This document shows positions 5,723 through 15,445 of a stretch of 64,000 nucleotides of DNA, piece by piece. The notes beneath the pieces are model-generated. The model ran no database searches and was not told the DNA's origin. It saw only the letters and a list, made by a program, of their open reading frames with translations. How positions within the stretch are numbered: the stretch's first letter is position 1; each line of letters starts with the position of its first letter. The stretch covers positions 2,296,001-2,360,000 of the forward strand of contig NZ_CP040671.1 of the NCBI RefSeq assembly GCF_008386235.1. The letters run 5' to 3'. The DNA is from Thermosynechococcus sp. CL-1. GTDB lineage: Bacteria > Cyanobacteriota > Cyanobacteriia > Thermosynechococcales > Thermosynechococcaceae. Both the position numbers and the translations under genes were made by a program.

Positions 5723-6475
5723 CTAAACCAATACGTGGCGGGGCGATCGCGGGGGACGGGAATGGGGTTTATTGCCATTCTGCTGGTAGCGCCCATTCAA
5801 TGCCTCAAGGTGCAGCCGATAGCCCACATTGCGCACGGTTTGAATGAGGCGCGGCTGCTGCGGATCCACTTCGATTTTCTTACGCAAAGATAAGATATGC
5901 GTATCCACGGTGCGGGGGTTGTCAATGCTCTCTGGCCAAGCTCGCCGCAGCAACTCCTGACGACTCAAAGGCGTGCCCCCCATTTGCGTCAGAACATAGA
6001 GTAGGCTAAATTCCTGCGGTGTCAAATCCACTGGCACATTGCGTACCACCACTCGCCGCTGCACTAAATCGACTTGTAACTCACCCAAGTTCAGGACACT
6101 GGGTAAACAGGGGCGTGCTCGCCGTGCCAAGGCCTCGACTCGGGCAAGAAATTCCTGCATCCCAAAGGGTTTGGCCAAGTAATCATCGGCACCCACCCGC
6201 AGCGCCGTCACCACATCCGCTTCATCCTCATGGGCGGAAAGAACTAAAATCAAAACAGTGTTTTGGTAGTGAAGCCAGCGGCATAATTCCAAACCATTGC
6301 CCTCATTCAAGTCCAGATCGAGAACAACCAAATCGGGATGTCGCAGTTGAAATACTTCCTGCCCCTGTTGACAACCACTGGCAAGATGAACGATGTGCCC
6401 CACTTGCTGTAGGTGCCAGCCAAGGAGGGAACGCAGGTGGGGGTTACTTTCAATAATTTCAACGTGCATCAACAT
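5723..6475 (-). CDS. OmpR/PhoB-type response regulator with atypical receiver (NblR-like)
   Basis: The 250-residue protein has a receiver domain (residues about 1-118) and a winged-helix DNA-binding domain (about 125-225, ending RLIQTVRNVGYRLHLE). The phospho-acceptor aspartate is present in LVVLDLDLNEGNGLELC, and the conserved lysine is in DYLAKPFG. The N-terminal acidic pair that binds magnesium in most receivers is replaced by Glu-Ser (EIIESNPH), so control by phosphorylation may be altered. This resembles NblR, the cyanobacterial regulator of phycobilisome breakdown, but I cannot confirm orthology. The C-terminal tail of about 25 residues is basic and proline-rich. The gene is divergent from the FHA/ABC transporter gene across a 230-bp gap. 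Confidence 0.85.
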   Translation of the reverse strand: MLMHVEIIESNPHLRSLLGWHLQQVGHIVHLASGCQQGQEVFQLRHPDLVVLDLDLNEGNGLELCRWLHYQNTVLILVLSAHEDEADVVTALRVGADDYLAKPFGMQEFLARVEALARRARPCLPSVLNLGELQVDLVQRRVVVRNVPVDLTPQEFSLLYVLTQMGGTPLSRQELLRRAWPESIDNPRTVDTHILSLRKKIEVDPQQPRLIQTVRNVGYRLHLEALNGRYQQNGNKPHSRPPRSPRHVLV

Positions 6476-6707
6476 GAATACATCCCCACAACAACGACGG
6501 AGTACAGGAAAAAGAGATTTCTTCTACATGTCTGGGAGAGGGTGCAACAGAGTGGCAATGTCTGGATGAATTGGATGCTAATTTAGCAAATTTAATCCCA
6601 ATGATTTCGTAACGACTAATACTTTAGGGTTTTTTCTTGTTCCTGTAATAGAAAATTCTTACTCTGGCTCTAGTGACAAAATGAAGTGGGGTTTCTAAAC
6701 AAGCGGT

Positions 6708-9689
6708 ATGGCAGTGCCCATTCTCAACCTTTTAGCGGCTGATGGTTCACGACAGCAAATTCAACTGGGGCGCGATCGCCTGCTTATCGGTACCGACCCC
6801 CAAAGCCAAGTGATTCTCGTCGGTGAGGGGATTTCCCGCCACCATGCCTTGATTATTCCCACGGAGACGGGTTATCAAGTGGCGGATCTCGGGAGCGCCA
6901 GCGGCACTTTTTTGAATGGTACGAAGCTGCGGCCACGCACCCCTGTGGCTCTAAAGGCGGGCGATCGCCTACAAATCGGTGACTTTGAAGCCATTTTTGA
7001 TCCAGATGGCATGGCAACAACGGAACTGCCGGGCACAGTGGTGATGGGGGCTGCCAGTACGCCGATCTTGCAGGTGGCAACGCCCCAGTGGTTGCAGGAG
7101 TTTCCGCTGCTGAAGGAGGAACTGGTTCTCGGTCGGGATCCGAAGGCGGACATCACCATTGACCATCCCTTTGTGTCCTTTCACCATGCCAAGCTGGTGC
7201 GATCGGGAGAGCATTACAAAATTATTGACTTGGGCAGCAAGAATGGCCTTCACTGGCGAGGCACAACGATTAGCGAACATGCCTTGGCACCGGGGGATGT
7301 GATCCATGTGGGGGAATTCCTGCGGCTGACCTACTTGTTGATGCCCGCCACGGAGGTTGTGGAGCAAACGCGCCCCCTCCAACTGCGCGATCGCCAGCAG
7401 GTGCGGATTGGCCGAGATCCCAGCAATGATATGGTGCTGGATCATCCGGTCGTCTCGCGGTTTCATGCCCGCCTTTACCTTCAGGAAGGACAGTGGTACA
7501 TTGTCGATCTCGACTCTGCCAACGGCACCTTCATCAATAACCAGCGCCTTGAACCCCGCAAACCCGTGCCTTTACCCACGGGGGCTTTGGTGCGCATTGG
7601 CCCCTATAGCTCGCTGTTTACCCCCGACGAAACCATTGTTCCCCACAACGACAGTGGCAATCTGCGCCTCGATGCCATCCACCTCAGCAAAACCACCGCC
7701 AAGGGGGCAAAGCTGCTGCAAGACATTTCCCTTTCAATTTTGCCCCGCGAGTTTGTCGCGATTGTTGGCGGCAGTGGTGCCGGTAAATCAACACTCCTCG
7801 ATGCCCTCAATGGCTTTCGCCCGGCGACGGCGGGCACGGTACTGGTCAATGGCTACGACCTATACCGCTACTTTGGCACCTATCGCACCCAGATTGGCTA
7901 TGTGCCTCAGGATGACATTATCCACAGCGAGCTAACGGTGGCTCAGGCCTTGGACTATGCGGCACGACTGCGCTTACCTGCTGATTTTAGCGATCAAGAG
8001 CGACAGGAACAGGTGAACCGCGTCCTTGCGGAATTGGAGTTAACATCTCGTCGCAATGTACTGGTGAAACAACTGAGTGGCGGTCAGCGCAAACGGGTGT
8101 CGATTGGTGTGGAATTGCTCACCCGCCCCAGTTTATTTTTCTTGGATGAAGCCACTTCTGGCTTGGATCCGGGCACAGAAACCCAGATGATGCGGCTGTT
8201 GCGGCAGTTGGCAGATCAGGGGCGAACGATTTTACTGATTACCCATGCGACTAAGAATGTCATGCTCTGCGATTTGGTGGTGTTTTTGGCACGGGGCGGC
8301 CACCTTGCCTATTTTGGGCCCCCGGATCAGGCCCTTAGCTATTTTGATGTCCAAGATTTTGATGAAATTTACCTCAAGATTGAGAGCGAACCAAATCCAG
8401 CGGTGTGGCAGCAGCGCTATCGCCGGTCTCATCTGTATCAAACCTATGTGGTGGAGCGACAGCGTCCCCTCAATGTGGATACGGGGGCAACCCGACAAGT
8501 CCAACCGCAACGCCCCAAAACAACCTTGCCCCCAGTGGCACCGTGGCGGCAGTGGTGGATTCTCACCCAGCGAAACTTGGCCATTTTGCGACAGGATCGG
8601 GCGGCACTCATTCTCATGCTCTCCCTCGCGCCGATTTTGGGAGCCTTGGATTTTGTCCTCTGGAAGCCAACGATTCTCGATCCGGATCAGGGGGATGCGG
8701 GGCAGGCATTTACGATGGCCTTTGTTACTGTGCTGATTGCGGTGATGGTGGGCAGCCTAGCGACGATGCGGGAAATTGTTAAGGAACTGGAGATCTATCG
8801 CCGCGAACGGATGGTGGGGTTGGGGCTGTGGCCCTATATTTTCTCCAAGCTTGGCCCAGCAGTGGTGCTGGCACTGTACCAAGCAGCGGTTTTTTTGGCG
8901 GTGAAGTTTTTGGCGATCGATCTGAGCCTCGGTATTGGGGCGATCGCTGGCTTGTATCTAACGCTGTTTCTGGCCACCTTTGGTGGCATGGTGATGGGGT
9001 TACTGGTCTCTGCCCTCTCGCCGACGCAAACCGTGGCTCCCTTGTTAACGATTCTCTTTTTGGTACCGCAGATTACCTTTGCTGGAGCAATTATTCCTCT
9101 GAAGGATCTAGGGGGCGTGGGCAATCTAATCAGTGATGTGACGTTGACCCGCTGGAGTTATGCCAATGTGGTGTCCCTCTTCGGTTTTGGTCAGGATGTG
9201 GCGCGGGATGCCTGCTGGCAGCAATCCAAATCTGAACGGGAGAAACTCAGTCCTGAAGCCCTAGAGCAATGTCCGTGTTTTGATGATAACCTCTTTCAAC
9301 GTTGCCGCTTTCCCGGCGTGCGCAAGGAGTACCACCCCGCTGTAGATGAACCCGAACCCCCACAACCTCCGGAACCGGGTGATCCACCGCCACTGCCCAA
9401 TTCGGTCTTAGAGTTTGATCAGGCCTATCGCGATCGCGTCGAGGAGTACAATCAACGGGTCAAAGACTATCAGGCGGCCATGGAGCGCTGGCAAGACCAA
9501 TTTGCCCTCTGGAAAGAGCAGCGGGGGCGGGCGATCGCCAGCGGTGAAGCTCTTATTGATCGCTTTTGGAGTCTTCAGAGGCACACGTTCAACGCCAATG
9601 TCACCGTCAATAACCTGCGCTTAGGGGGCATTATTGCCCTCATGCTGGGACTAGTGGGGGTCTTTCAAAAACGCAAGGATGTGCTTTAG
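6708..9689 (+). CDS. ABC transporter half-unit with three N-terminal FHA domains
   Basis: The 993-residue protein fuses regulation, ATPase and membrane parts. Three FHA (phosphothreonine-binding) domains lie at about residues 20-95, 135-210 and 225-300, each with a GRDP/GTDP and an SRHH/SFHH/SRFH motif. An ABCG-like ATPase follows at about 325-555, with Walker A GGSGAGKST near 353, signature LSGGQRKRVSIG near 457 and Walker B LFFLDEATSGLD near 477. An ABC-2 membrane domain starts near 635. A proline-rich and coiled-coil insert (about 830-950) comes before the last membrane helix. FHA-ABC fusions occur in cyanobacteria and are thought to be controlled by Ser/Thr kinases; the substrate is unknown. 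The stop overlaps the convergent argD stop. Confidence 0.93.
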   Translation: MAVPILNLLAADGSRQQIQLGRDRLLIGTDPQSQVILVGEGISRHHALIIPTETGYQVADLGSASGTFLNGTKLRPRTPVALKAGDRLQIGDFEAIFDPDGMATTELPGTVVMGAASTPILQVATPQWLQEFPLLKEELVLGRDPKADITIDHPFVSFHHAKLVRSGEHYKIIDLGSKNGLHWRGTTISEHALAPGDVIHVGEFLRLTYLLMPATEVVEQTRPLQLRDRQQVRIGRDPSNDMVLDHPVVSRFHARLYLQEGQWYIVDLDSANGTFINNQRLEPRKPVPLPTGALVRIGPYSSLFTPDETIVPHNDSGNLRLDAIHLSKTTAKGAKLLQDISLSILPREFVAIVGGSGAGKSTLLDALNGFRPATAGTVLVNGYDLYRYFGTYRTQIGYVPQDDIIHSELTVAQALDYAARLRLPADFSDQERQEQVNRVLAELELTSRRNVLVKQLSGGQRKRVSIGVELLTRPSLFFLDEATSGLDPGTETQMMRLLRQLADQGRTILLITHATKNVMLCDLVVFLARGGHLAYFGPPDQALSYFDVQDFDEIYLKIESEPNPAVWQQRYRRSHLYQTYVVERQRPLNVDTGATRQVQPQRPKTTLPPVAPWRQWWILTQRNLAILRQDRAALILMLSLAPILGALDFVLWKPTILDPDQGDAGQAFTMAFVTVLIAVMVGSLATMREIVKELEIYRRERMVGLGLWPYIFSKLGPAVVLALYQAAVFLAVKFLAIDLSLGIGAIAGLYLTLFLATFGGMVMGLLVSALSPTQTVAPLLTILFLVPQITFAGAIIPLKDLGGVGNLISDVTLTRWSYANVVSLFGFGQDVARDACWQQSKSEREKLSPEALEQCPCFDDNLFQRCRFPGVRKEYHPAVDEPEPPQPPEPGDPPPLPNSVLEFDQAYRDRVEEYNQRVKDYQAAMERWQDQFALWKEQRGRAIASGEALIDRFWSLQRHTFNANVTVNNLRLGGIIALMLGLVGVFQKRKDVL

Positions 9690-10939: not shown

Positions 10940-11080
10940 AGCAAAAACTTCCTGCTATCTTAGCATCTCCCTCTCGCTGTGGCAGGGGAGTTACAGGTCT
11001 CTCTAGAATTAGTGCTTATTGACCCCCAAGGATTGCTTCGGTACACTACACCTAGTATTCCGCCATTGAGTCCTGCCCCT

Positions 11081-14000
11081 ATGGTGCAAAATCCTCCCCG
11101 TCCTCAAACCAGCTTCCCCGCTACGGCTCCCACAGCCTATCCCGTGTTTTACCGCACCTACAGCCGCCAAAATGAAGCGGGCGAGCGGGAGAGTTGGCAA
11201 CAGGTGTGCGATCGCACCCTGCAAGGACTACAGGAAGTGGGGCACCTCACCGCAGCAGAAGTTGCCCTTCTCCGGGAAATGCAGCAGGAGCTAAAGGCGT
11301 TGCCCTCTGGCCGTTGGTTGTGGGTGGGAGGAACGGATTGGGTGCGCCAGCCCGAGAACTTTTCCGGTGCCTACAACTGCACCAGCACCAATGTCGTGGA
11401 TTGGGATTCCTTTGGCCTGATGATGGACTTGGCCATGCAGGGCTGTGGCACAGGGGCGATTCTAGAGCAGAAATACATCTCCCAGTTGCCGCCGATTTGC
11501 AATCGCCTTGAGGTGACTGTCATTGGTCAAATTGGTCAAACCCCCAAGGAAGCGCGTCAAGAGCAAACAACTGTAATACTCACGGGGCAGACCTGTCAAA
11601 TCAAAGTGGGGGATAGCCGCCAAGGGTGGGTGAAGTCCTACCAAACGCTGCTTGAACTCGCCAGCAATCCTCAACTCGCTGGTTCAGTTCAGGTGACGAT
11701 TGACATTAGTGATGTGCGTCCTACGGGTGAGCGACTCAAGGGGTTTGGGGGAGTTGCCAATCCAGTAAAGCTGCCAGACCTCTACCATCGCTGCGCGGCA
11801 CTGTTGAATGCGGCGGTGGGTCGCCAGTTGACCTCTGTGGAGTGTTGTCTGCTGATTGATGAGGCAGCCGTTGTGGTTGTTGCTGGCAATGTGAGGCGTT
11901 GTTTGCCTGAGGATGCTTTGGTACACACAAGCAAGGGACTGATCCCGATCAAAGACATCCAAGTGGGGGACTGGGTGCAAACGCCCTTAGGGTTTCGGCA
12001 AGTAACCCAGAAATTTGACCAAGGCTACCAAGAGGCTTATGAAGTAATAACCAATGGTCCTTTGCTGCGAGCTACCCTAAACCATCGGATTGCAACTCTT
12101 GCGGATGTTTCAGGGGGAATTCACTGGAAATTTGTCAATGCCTTAAACCCGGGCGATCGCCTGCTTCACAATACTCAAGTTTTACCCGGTACAGTTACTC
12201 ATTTGCCATCAGACTTTACTGATTCTCGACCACGCGGTAGTCATACTTCTCAAGCAATCACTATTCCAGAACTGACGGCTGATGTTGCTTGGTTAATTGG
12301 CTTTACCCACGGGGATGGTTATGTTAGCTTGGGACGCAACAAGTACAACAAACCCTTTGGTAGCATTTGTTGGGTTTACAACAGTTTAGATTCCAAGCTT
12401 GCTCAGCAGATTCATACTAAAATCAACTGTGCTCTTACTCTCTTCGGTGTACAAGCCAGACAAGAGTGTATTGAAGGTGAGAATACCTTGCGATCGCGAG
12501 TAACCTCTATTCATCTTGCAGAATACTTTCACCGCTATATTAAGCAACCTAAACAACCGTTAGAAGTCCCTAGCTTTATCTTGCAGGGAACGGTTGAGGT
12601 GCGTTGCGCTTACTTAGCAGGTCTAGTGGATAGTGACGGTTCTGCCTGTGGGCGGCCACCTTACCTATTAACGACTGTATATCCTAAATTTGCTCGTCAA
12701 GTTAGCACTCTTTTATCTAGTTTGGGAATTGCTGTTCGAATCGGTGTCACACTCCCCCAAAAAGAGCATTGGCAACTCAAATATCATCTCAAACTACCGG
12801 CTTTTAAGGCTCGCTACAACAGTCTCATTGCACCGTATTCCTTGAAAGGTAAAATTCATCAAGGACAGGAAGCCCATGGCTTTACAATTCCTGCAACTAT
12901 GATGCGGGAAACCTATACCTATAGCCAAATGCGGGAAATGGGTTTTGAAGGTTCCCGAAGCGTGGATGCCAATTACGAGAGGTATATTGCTGAAGCTGAA
13001 GTTAGTCTTGATATTCCCGTAACAGTAAAAGAACTAGGCAGCTACGACTATGTTCAGACCTATGATATTGAGGTCGAAGATGCCCACTGTTTTTACTGTG
13101 ATGGTTATCTGATGCACAACAGCGCTGGTATGCGTCAGGGGGCAAGTGAGGATAAGGCTTTTGCCCAAGCCAAGCAAAATCTCTGGCAACAGGATGAGCA
13201 AGGCAATTGGCGAATTGATCCCAAGCGGGATGCCCTGCGGATGGCCAACCACACCCGTGTCTTTCACACCAAGCCTAGTCTTGAAGAATGTATCAATGCC
13301 GTGCGCAGTCAGTTCTATTCAGGAGAAGGTGCCATTCAATGGGCCGGTGAGGCCGTTGCCCGCGCCAATGCCGATCTTTTGACTACAGCGGATCTCAAGC
13401 AGGCCTTCCTCCGTGCCTATGAAAATCAACAGGGGGAGGCGTTTTTGCGGCAACTGTTGCCCACTATCGATCAACGGGAGCTGGCTCACCGCTTGGGTCG
13501 TTATGGCCTCAATCCCTGTGTTACAAGCGATACGTGGGTACTCACAGAAGTAGGGCCGCGCCAAGTCAAAGATTTGATCGGCCAACAGCACGGCACCTAT
13601 GTCAATGGCGAATTGTTTAGTACCACCGCCGCTGGCTTTTTCCTGAGTGGTATCCAGCCAGTTCTCAAACTTACCACCCGTGAAGGCTATACCCTACGGC
13701 TCACCGCGAACCATCGTTTGCTGAAAGTGACCGCCCAAACCCCGAAAAGACAATACACGGAATGGGTAGAAGCAGGTCAATTGCACGCAGGCGATCGCCT
13801 TCTTTTGCACAATCACCGTGATCTAACTCCTTGGGGTGGTAAGGGAACTTGGGAAGAAGGCCGTTACACCGCTCAAGCCCTTTATCAAGTTGCCACAGGA
13901 AGCGCTGCTGTGCAAACCCAAGCAGCAGGCTGTTTCACAGGGATTGAACACCGCCAAAACGACTGGATAGCTGTACTCCCCCATAGCTTAGAAAAGAACT

Positions 14001-15445
14001 TTCGCCTAATCACCATCGAAGAAGGCAGCTATGCATTCTACTGCGGGTTCCTCCGAGAGATTTTCGTGACGACTCAGTTAACATCAATACCACGGCTGCA
14101 TGTCACACTGGGGGATCGACAACTAGCTTCACTTATTCAGCGCATGCTACTGCGTTTGGGAATCGTTTCGGTGGTTGCAGAATCATCCCTAGTTATCCAA
14201 GGGGATAATCTCACAACGCTGGCTCGGGTTCTGGAATTGGGGGCGATCGCCCATAATGACTCCTTACCTCCCGAACGCTTTACAGTTGTCGTTGAGTCAA
14301 TTACTCCCGATGGCATTGAGCCAGTGTATGACTGTACCGTGCCCGGCCCGAATTGCTTTGATGCCAATGGCTTTGTTGCTCACAATTGCGGTGAAATTAT
14401 TGGTGCTGATTTCCACTGCAACCTTGCGGAAATCCACCTGAATCAAATTGATCCAGCGGATACGATCACACAGGAAAAAGCCTTCAAGGCTGGTGCGCTC
14501 TCAGTGGCAGCGCTATTGAACCATCGCTTTGTTGTCGATCGCTATCAATACTCCCGCGCTATTGATCCCATTGTTGGCGTCAGTTTTACGGGGCTATTTG
14601 ACTTCTGTGTTCATGCCTTTGGTGTGCCTTGGCTGGAATGGTGGGCCGCGGGACGACCGGATACCCCCCAAGGGCGCGAATTCAAAGCCCAAGAGGCAGC
14701 CTTCCTGCAACGCTGGCGGCAAATTGTCCATGAGACCGTCTGGGAGTATTGCGATCGCCACGGCCTCAAGCGCCCCAATCGCTGTACCACCGTCCAACCC
14801 TCCGGTACCAAATCCCTGTTGACGGGTGCCTCTCCCGGCTGGCATCCCCCCAAAGCCCAACGCTTTATTCGACGGATTACCTTCCGCAAGGGCGACCCCG
14901 TGGCCATGGCCTGCTATGACTTTGGCTACAATATCATTCCCTCCCAGTCCGATAAGGATGAGACAGGGAAACTTCTTGATGATCCCTTTGATCCACGGTG
15001 TACCGAGTGGCTAGTGGAAATTCCCGTTGCCGTCTCTTGGGCAGATCTGCCGGGGGCAGACACGATTGATATTAGCCAGTTTTCGGCCTTGGCGCAGTTT
15101 GACTTCTATATGCAGGTGCAGCAGCACTACACCACCCACAACACCAGTGCCACCATTGAGCTACGGGAACCTGAAGTCGAACCCCTTGCCACGGCAATTT
15201 ACACGGCGATTCAGCAGGATCAAGGGTATATCTCTGCGGCGCTCTTGGCACGCTTTGATGCCCATGAAACATTCCCGCGTCTGCCCTTTGAACCCATTAG
15301 CAAAGAACGGTACGAGCAGGAAGTCACTGCGGTTGCTCGGCGCAAGCGGATCAATGATTTCCATGAAGCCCTCTCCCGCTATACCCAACCCCTCATGGAA
15401 GCAGGACCTGCGGGCTGCGACTCCGATAAGTGTCTAATGTCCTAG
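11081..15445 (+). CDS. nrdJ: Adenosylcobalamin-dependent (class II) ribonucleotide reductase with two inteins
   Basis: NrdJ reduces ribonucleotides to deoxyribonucleotides with a radical made from coenzyme B12 and needs no second subunit. I start at the ATG at 11081; the frame extends upstream to a GTG at 10979. The precursor is 1454 residues, and after removal of two inteins (407 and 290 residues) about 757 remain, which fits cyanobacterial class II enzymes. Active-site parts seen are SGAYNCTSTN near the N-terminus, GNVRR|SAGM interrupted by intein 1, NP|CGEI interrupted by intein 2, and a C-terminal cysteine pair GCDSDKCLMS. Both inteins must splice out for an active enzyme. The gene is divergent from argD, with a hairpin terminator just past its stop. 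Confidence 0.95.
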   Translation: MVQNPPRPQTSFPATAPTAYPVFYRTYSRQNEAGERESWQQVCDRTLQGLQEVGHLTAAEVALLREMQQELKALPSGRWLWVGGTDWVRQPENFSGAYNCTSTNVVDWDSFGLMMDLAMQGCGTGAILEQKYISQLPPICNRLEVTVIGQIGQTPKEARQEQTTVILTGQTCQIKVGDSRQGWVKSYQTLLELASNPQLAGSVQVTIDISDVRPTGERLKGFGGVANPVKLPDLYHRCAALLNAAVGRQLTSVECCLLIDEAAVVVVAGNVRRCLPEDALVHTSKGLIPIKDIQVGDWVQTPLGFRQVTQKFDQGYQEAYEVITNGPLLRATLNHRIATLADVSGGIHWKFVNALNPGDRLLHNTQVLPGTVTHLPSDFTDSRPRGSHTSQAITIPELTADVAWLIGFTHGDGYVSLGRNKYNKPFGSICWVYNSLDSKLAQQIHTKINCALTLFGVQARQECIEGENTLRSRVTSIHLAEYFHRYIKQPKQPLEVPSFILQGTVEVRCAYLAGLVDSDGSACGRPPYLLTTVYPKFARQVSTLLSSLGIAVRIGVTLPQKEHWQLKYHLKLPAFKARYNSLIAPYSLKGKIHQGQEAHGFTIPATMMRETYTYSQMREMGFEGSRSVDANYERYIAEAEVSLDIPVTVKELGSYDYVQTYDIEVEDAHCFYCDGYLMHNSAGMRQGASEDKAFAQAKQNLWQQDEQGNWRIDPKRDALRMANHTRVFHTKPSLEECINAVRSQFYSGEGAIQWAGEAVARANADLLTTADLKQAFLRAYENQQGEAFLRQLLPTIDQRELAHRLGRYGLNPCVTSDTWVLTEVGPRQVKDLIGQQHGTYVNGELFSTTAAGFFLSGIQPVLKLTTREGYTLRLTANHRLLKVTAQTPKRQYTEWVEAGQLHAGDRLLLHNHRDLTPWGGKGTWEEGRYTAQALYQVATGSAAVQTQAAGCFTGIEHRQNDWIAVLPHSLEKNFRLITIEEGSYAFYCGFLREIFVTTQLTSIPRLHVTLGDRQLASLIQRMLLRLGIVSVVAESSLVIQGDNLTTLARVLELGAIAHNDSLPPERFTVVVESITPDGIEPVYDCTVPGPNCFDANGFVAHNCGEIIGADFHCNLAEIHLNQIDPADTITQEKAFKAGALSVAALLNHRFVVDRYQYSRAIDPIVGVSFTGLFDFCVHAFGVPWLEWWAAGRPDTPQGREFKAQEAAFLQRWRQIVHETVWEYCDRHGLKRPNRCTTVQPSGTKSLLTGASPGWHPPKAQRFIRRITFRKGDPVAMACYDFGYNIIPSQSDKDETGKLLDDPFDPRCTEWLVEIPVAVSWADLPGADTIDISQFSALAQFDFYMQVQQHYTTHNTSATIELREPEVEPLATAIYTAIQQDQGYISAALLARFDAHETFPRLPFEPISKERYEQEVTAVARRKRINDFHEALSRYTQPLMEAGPAGCDSDKCLMS
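11900..13120 (+). other. Intein 1 in NrdJ (large, with LAGLIDADG endonuclease)
   Basis: A 407-residue intein starts at Cys (CLPEDALVHTSKG) after the extein NVRR and ends with YCDGYLMHN before extein Ser (SAGMRQG). The N-terminal splicing block, the block B-like motif ATLNHRIA and the C-terminal His-Asn are all present. Two LAGLIDADG-type motifs, AWLIGFTHGDGYVSL and AYLAGLVDSDGSA, show a homing endonuclease domain with its acidic residues kept, so it may still be mobile. The insertion site is the conserved GNVRRSA region of the reductase barrel. Predicted splicing uses Cys1 and Ser+1. Confidence 0.93.
13517..14386 (+). other. Intein 2 in NrdJ, inserted at the catalytic NPCGE motif
   Basis: A 290-residue intein starts at Cys (CVTSDTWVLTEVG) after extein LGLNP-type sequence (RYGLNP) and ends DANGFVAHN before extein Cys (CGEIIGA). 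The block B motif LTANHRLLKV and the terminal His-Asn are present. No convincing LAGLIDADG pair is visible in the central part, which suggests a degenerate or lost endonuclease. The +1 residue used for splicing is the cysteine of NPCGE, which in ribonucleotide reductases carries the thiyl radical, so the same residue serves first in splicing and then in catalysis. Confidence 0.92.

Follow-up and report, generated by a model that had tools for sequence, protein, structure and literature searches.

Two predicted self-splicing inteins in the class II ribonucleotide reductase gene of Thermosynechococcus sp. CL-1, one of them at the presumed radical cysteine

Results and Discussion

The nrdJ locus

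The window analysed here is a stretch of 64,000 nucleotides of the Thermosynechococcus sp. CL-1 genome (NZ_CP040671.1, forward strand positions 2,296,001 to 2,360,000), and coordinates refer to it unless stated otherwise. The open reading frame at 10979..15445 on the plus strand encodes the precursor of NrdJ, a monomeric AdoCbl-dependent ribonucleotide reductase of the RTPR type; it passes the NrdJm/RTPR model TIGR02505 with 746 bits (cut-off 340), and its solved relative is the Lactobacillus leichmannii RTPR (PDB 1l1l). The frame has 1488 aa when counted from GTG 10979, the most upstream of its possible start codons; ATG 11081 is an alternative. The TIGR02505 match is spread over three stretches, the two gaps between them are two inteins, and the reductase sequence is continuous once these are removed. 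The middle extein segment occupies 13121..13516 and the C-terminal extein, also matched by TIGR02505, 14387..15445, both on the plus strand. A search for known RNAs between 9500 and 16000 gave no match at E<=0.1.

An earlier note on this DNA had proposed two inteins in one ribonucleotide reductase at 11900-14386. These positions are the first base of intein 1 and the last base of intein 2, and the proposal is borne out by the mapped junctions and by the splicing blocks found with Pfam and NCBIfam models.

Intein 1

Intein 1 is a class 1 intein of 407 aa with a LAGLIDADG endonuclease (11900..13120, plus strand), and its +1 Ser codon is 13121-13123. Its junctions are GNVRR/CLPEDALVHT...CDGYLMHN/SAGMRQ, where a slash marks the point of insertion, here and below. 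The class 1 features (Cys or Ser at position 1, a His-Asn end, and Cys, Ser or Thr at +1) are all present, as CLPED...LMHN/S. Both LAGLIDADG motifs are retained with their acids, WLIGFTHGDGYV and YLAGLVDSDGSA, as the earlier note had also read them, so that intein 1 has the two acid-bearing motifs by which a LAGLIDADG homing endonuclease is predicted. The Pfam LAGLIDADG_3 model matches its residues 233-287 (12596..12760, plus strand) with E=3.8e-9 and 37.1 bits, above the cut-off of 22.5. The splicing models respond less to intein 1 taken alone: Pfam Intein_splicing gives 26.2 bits, below its curated cut-off of 35.8, and NCBIfam intein_Cterm misses it (12.9 against 15.6), so its identity rests on its homologues and on the empty alleles of congeners.

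Intein 2 and the radical cysteine

Intein 2, a class 1 intein of 290 aa (13517..14386, plus strand), lies between the Pro and the Cys of NPCGE, with the junctions YGLNP/CVTSDTWVLT...NGFVAHN/CGEII. In a profile of eight intein-free reductases the NPC cysteine, whose codon 14387..14389 (plus strand) supplies the +1 residue, aligns with residue 408 of 1l1l, and the FHC cysteine (14417..14419, plus strand) with residue 419. We take C408 of RTPR to be the thiyl-radical cysteine and C419 to be a member of the reducing pair; on this alignment the +1 nucleophile of intein 2 would be the radical cysteine itself, which agrees with the earlier claim that the two are the same NPCGE residue. The C419 codon, called site 3 below, is occupied by inteins in other cyanobacteria and is empty here.

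Every residue expected of a class 1 intein is found in intein 2: C1, T63 and H66 in what is presumably block B, D272 in what is presumably block F, the terminal H289 and N290, and the +1 Cys. NCBIfam intein_Nterm (26.5 bits) and intein_Cterm (22.8 bits) both pass. Pfam Intein_splicing reaches 32.9 bits on intein 2 alone, below the curated cut-off of 35.8, and 50.2 bits, above it, on the whole reading frame. An AlphaFold2 model of middling confidence (17 sequences, mean pLDDT 69.3, pTM 0.50, with residues 129-163 and the last 13, 278-290, under pLDDT 50) shows a Hint domain. Its best structural match is the NpuDnaB intein, with a Z of 13.9 and an rmsd of 2.5 across 126 residues; further inteins come next.

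The endonuclease of intein 2 survives as a remnant at residues 116-251 (13862..14269, plus strand), with no motif 1 and a degenerate motif 2, and the LAGLIDADG_3 score of 16.7 bits is below the cut-off of 22.5. Intein 2 therefore does not qualify as a LAGLIDADG homing endonuclease, and the loss suspected in the earlier note is confirmed. The label of mini-intein was rejected, since about 135 aa of the remnant persist within the 290 aa.

A Pro at -1 slows the N-terminal thioester chemistry of inteins, and given its Pro at -1 the splicing of intein 2 might be slow; a literature search on Pro at -1 of inteins returned nothing relevant. Block F reads YDC or nearly so, with an invariant Cys273, in all 66 cyanobacterial alleles at this site, and the position is Val in the archaeal relative described below. 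This cysteine suggested a class 3 mechanism, in which, according to the available part of PMC6195587, the N-terminal nucleophile is absent and a block-F Cys is used instead. We rejected that assignment for intein 2, as Cys1 is invariant in 66 of 66 alleles and D272 is kept beside Cys273.

Conservation of the site-2 family

Inteins at the position of intein 2 (site 2) are common among cyanobacteria and are no oddity of CL-1. At E<=1e-3, 101 of 388 genomes of the class gave matches; 68 loci besides CL-1 were fetched, of which 65 were full length. The junction NP/C...HN/C(G/A)E, including the Pro at -1, is found in all 65 full-length homologues from 65 other genomes, and C1, T63, H66, D272, C273, H289 and N290 are invariant across the 66 aligned alleles. 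The junctions predicted from CL-1 thus hold in the family alignment, as they do in the eight intein-free congeners described below.

The splicing domain of intein 2 is up to 77.3% identical to those of family members. When conserved columns are defined as those kept in at least 60 of the 66 alleles, intein 2 has changed 2 of 73 in the splicing part and 25 of 46 in the endonuclease part (Fisher p 5e-11, a guide only, since the alleles are related). The tested acid is retained in both LAGLIDADG motifs in 56 of the 66 alleles, lost from one in five and lost from both in a further five, namely CL-1 intein 2 and those of loci L133, L085, L134 and L086. In the site-2 tree these acid-less alleles stand apart: CL-1 groups with L094/L095, L134 with L119/L128 and L086 with L146/L147, while L133 and L085 share a loose fork, where the partner of L133 is L110 (81/88). 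None of the partners L094, L095, L119, L128, L146, L147 and L110 is among the alleles with a lost acid. This scatter argues that the site-2 endonuclease died several times while splicing was retained. In the homing-cycle model, inteins of essential genes usually reach this state, a dead endonuclease with splicing kept, late in their history.

Distribution within the genus and the class

Among the 11 Thermosynechococcus genomes, CL-1 included, eight have neither intein, one (G102) has intein 1 only, one (G133) has a site-2 intein only, and CL-1 has both. The eight intein-free alleles (L038-L045) all read through both junctions; that of L045 contains an in-frame TGA away from them.

Intein 1 shares 92.3% nucleotide identity with its counterpart in G005, a genome of another family, against 67.5% identity of the exteins, which argues that it moved after the hosts had diverged. 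At site 2, CL-1 intein 2 clusters with those of L094/L095 (98/92) and the G133 intein with that of G112, of the same family as G133 (100/99); since they fall in different groups, two acquisitions at this site took place within one genus. A phage source for intein 2 found no support, with no tblastn match at E<=1e-5 among 50,697 phage records, a search outside which viral_contigs fell and which is weak evidence.

In the class, 67 of the 388 genomes give site-1 matches. Of the site-1 inteins in the fetched loci, 49 belong to the lineage of CL-1 intein 1 and 13 to a second lineage, 31-36% identical to it. The second lineage (394 aa; L104, L122, L143, L187-L196) ends in SN/S, without the penultimate His. 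Site-1 and full-length site-2 inteins occur together in 17 of 112 fetched loci, which were chosen for the presence of inteins. A co-conversion footprint at site 1 was considered and could not be established: eight empty alleles of the genus read CGA/TCN against CGT/AGC in CL-1 and G102, and the ninth empty allele, that of G133, reads CGC/AGC. Over all loci the AGY codon is present in 51 of 70 empty, 36 of 49 first-lineage and 13 of 13 second-lineage rows, which offers no contrast. In two draft genomes (L127 and L151) the reductase is disrupted where the inteins lie and spreads over two or three frames, through decay or assembly error.

Predicted dependence on splicing

The CL-1 genome is a single contig of 2.65 Mb, listed as 100% complete, and holds one gene matching TIGR02505. 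It gave no match to PF02867, the barrel of class I and dimeric class II reductases (control positive in 11 of 14 genomes), and none to PF13597, for class III (control positive in 6 of 14 genomes). As no second reductase was detected, an active enzyme should require both splicing events, and the suggestion that the supply of DNA precursors depends on them is upheld to that extent.

Origin and maintenance of the two inteins

We consider it very probable that nrdJ carries two separately acquired class 1 inteins, predicted to be self-splicing, and that the active-site position of intein 2 reflects homing and not radical function. Cys1 of each intein would form an N-terminal thioester, the chain would be transferred to the residue at +1 (Ser after intein 1, the future radical Cys after intein 2), and the terminal Asn would cyclise as the exteins join. 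The mature NrdJ would then have roughly 791 aa if the GTG is taken as its start. Intein 1 would be a mobile allele with an apparently intact endonuclease, gained by horizontal transfer, and intein 2 a member of a widespread family at the NPCGE codons whose endonuclease appears to be dead in CL-1. Its persistence would be explained by the rarity of precise loss together with an essential enzyme that keeps splicing intact. Its place at the radical cysteine would follow from two properties of the site: active-site codons that do not vary make good homing targets, and Cys supplies the +1 nucleophile; the function of that residue in radical chemistry would not be the reason. The ten residues around each of sites 1 to 4 (sites 3 and 4 are described below) rank in the top 8 to 15% of sequence segments by conservation in eight sequences, which is only mildly unusual.

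A possible regulatory role of intein 2 can be read from the sequence in two forms, both of which we regard as improbable. It may have been retained as a post-translational switch whose splicing is slowed by cold or when Cys1, Cys273 or the +1 Cys is oxidised; dNTP supply would then pause under stress. The two splicing nucleophiles are indeed both thiols, Cys273 is found in 66 of 66 cyanobacterial alleles, and in the five alleles in which both tested endonuclease acids are lost the splicing blocks are retained; moreover, the available part of PMC6195587 describes a DnaB intein of M. smegmatis that is reversibly blocked by H2O2 through a disulfide. Against this, the class 1 DnaBi2 intein was not redox-responsive in the same source, Cys273 is replaced by Val in the archaeal relative, 8 of the 11 congeners live without an intein, and conservation of splicing is imposed by the essential host gene, so that no switch is needed to explain it. 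The other form, to which we give the same low probability, is a maturation gate, in which the sulfur of the future radical cysteine could take over the acyl chain only while reduced and unblocked. Active reductase would then arise solely from precursor synthesised in a reducing, permissive environment, and dNTP supply would be tied to redox state or temperature.

That intein 2 splices poorly and nrdJ is heading to inactivation is the least likely reading, and we find it very hard to sustain: the intein has a long branch (0.32), replacements of His by Leu at position 9 and of Lys by Gln at position 47, in columns kept in 61 and 60 of the 66 alleles, and Pro at -1, but every class 1 residue is kept, the same Pro occurs in all 65 homologues, and the frame is open in a genome with no other reductase detected.

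Other reductases, other sites and a probable neighbouring intron

The 66 hosts of site-2 inteins were labelled as 56 NrdJm, nine dimeric class II enzymes and one divergent RTPR. Model scans cover three of the ten hosts outside plain NrdJm: L126 and L132 satisfy TIGR02504, and L129 reaches 311 bits with TIGR02505, below the cut-off of 340. The other seven were labelled by similarity to L126 and L132. Among 20 named relative loci, 19 are cyanobacterial and one (L216) is a Bathyarchaeota record, in which a site-2 relative is inserted at ATNP/C...HN/CGE of a PF02867 reductase. One intein family is therefore found at the homologous cysteine of different reductases. The L216 intein (6001-7104, plus strand) carries LAGLIDADG_3 (E 5.5e-27); transfer or old shared descent may account for it, and misbinning is possible.

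Site 3 is occupied in 14 fetched loci, at FH/C...TG(Q or N)/CNL, with the +1 Cys aligned with C419, in addition to one ambiguous row (L161). Twelve of these inteins end in Gln and not Asn, as TLTGQ/CNL (L085, L087, L104, L105, L112, L114, L118, L119, L123, L133, L163 and L167); those of L138 and L141 end in Asn. Site 4, at QPAG/C...HN/TKS, is occupied in four fetched loci.

In nine fetched loci the reductase is interrupted between AAY CCG TGT GGT and GAR AT by a gap of 269 to 1181 bases that ends in G; the ends were set by the reading-frame pattern and may be wrong by a few bases. This break, at NPCG/E and six bases downstream of site 2, is probably a group I intron. The break of L156 matches RF00028 with E=2e-5 and 29.3 bits, under the gathering cut-off of 50; no match at E<=0.01 was found in L181, L188 or L164, and none at the gathering cut-off in 12 loci. 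Full-length intein 2 is absent from all nine loci, which are not a random sample, and such exclusion would be expected if either element destroys the target of the other. Beside the split nrdJ of L189 (7758-8828, minus strand) lie seven tandem copies of the NsiR1 small RNA.

Comparison with known systems

The CL-1 inteins add one more case to a class of mobile elements that is already well known, and published systems are compared here from the available part of each source. In RNRdb, about 80 inteins and more than 100 group I introns had been curated (PMC2795772). Several inteins were described in the Trichodesmium ribonucleotide reductase gene in a 2003 study (cited in PMC1635734 and PMC4649490); CL-1 nrdJ is likewise a cyanobacterial reductase gene with several inteins, but has two of them and no RNA intron. 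In Nostoc punctiforme the reductase gene contains a group I intron (Meng et al. 2007, described in PMC12702839), also a self-splicing element in a cyanobacterial reductase gene but one of RNA, and the nine probable introns at NPCG/E may be of the same kind. The R2 intein of Aquifex aeolicus lies between iron ligands in the active site of a thermophile's reductase, as intein 2 lies in an active site, and was excised when an intein-bearing construct was expressed; it differs in belonging to the small subunit of a class I enzyme (PMC8772380). The haloarchaeal MCM-a and MCM-d inteins resemble the CL-1 pair in occupying two sites of one essential gene with a patchy distribution among relatives, but both of their endonucleases are active (PMC10643990). 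The DnaB inteins of Synechocystis and Nostoc (PDB 1mi8 and 4o1r), of class 1 Hint fold, are the nearest solved sequences and structures, though with another host gene and junction, and their solved forms are mini-inteins. The cyanobacterial site-2 NrdJ family shares the junction NP/C...HN/C and the splicing residues with intein 2, but 56 of its 66 members keep both tested acids that CL-1 and four others have lost. A report of the two CL-1 nrdJ inteins themselves was not found in the literature searched, which carries little weight since most subscription papers fell outside it.

What is notable here is the identity of the +1 Cys, the unfailing Pro before it, the recurrence of one insertion site in different reductase families and domains, and the adjoining probable intron. 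The NPCGE codons are an active-site target shared by unrelated self-splicing elements, an intein family and, six bases off, a probable group I intron, and inteins are also inserted at a second active-site cysteine, ten residues beyond the radical one. For tests of homing and of cost, the genus provides alleles that are naturally empty, single or double, and the site-2 family offers a ready collection of natural inteins with a Pro/Cys junction.

Two other loci of the CL-1 genome contain intein-like sequences. An 817-aa reading frame (L218, 406-2856, plus strand; C1:1665000-1668500) has an intein-like splicing domain of 23.5 bits, under the cut-off, which surrounds a DUF559 nuclease domain (E 1.4e-24) at C/GSGTT; from its motif the host may be a DNA methylase, with no Pfam methylase match. 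A 1499-aa DNA gyrase B reading frame (L217, 1210-5706, minus strand; C1:2067500-2073500) carries two inteins, seen as two Intein_splicing stretches, the first with a weak HNH match (E 0.004) and the second with LAGLIDADG_3 and a helix-turn-helix domain.
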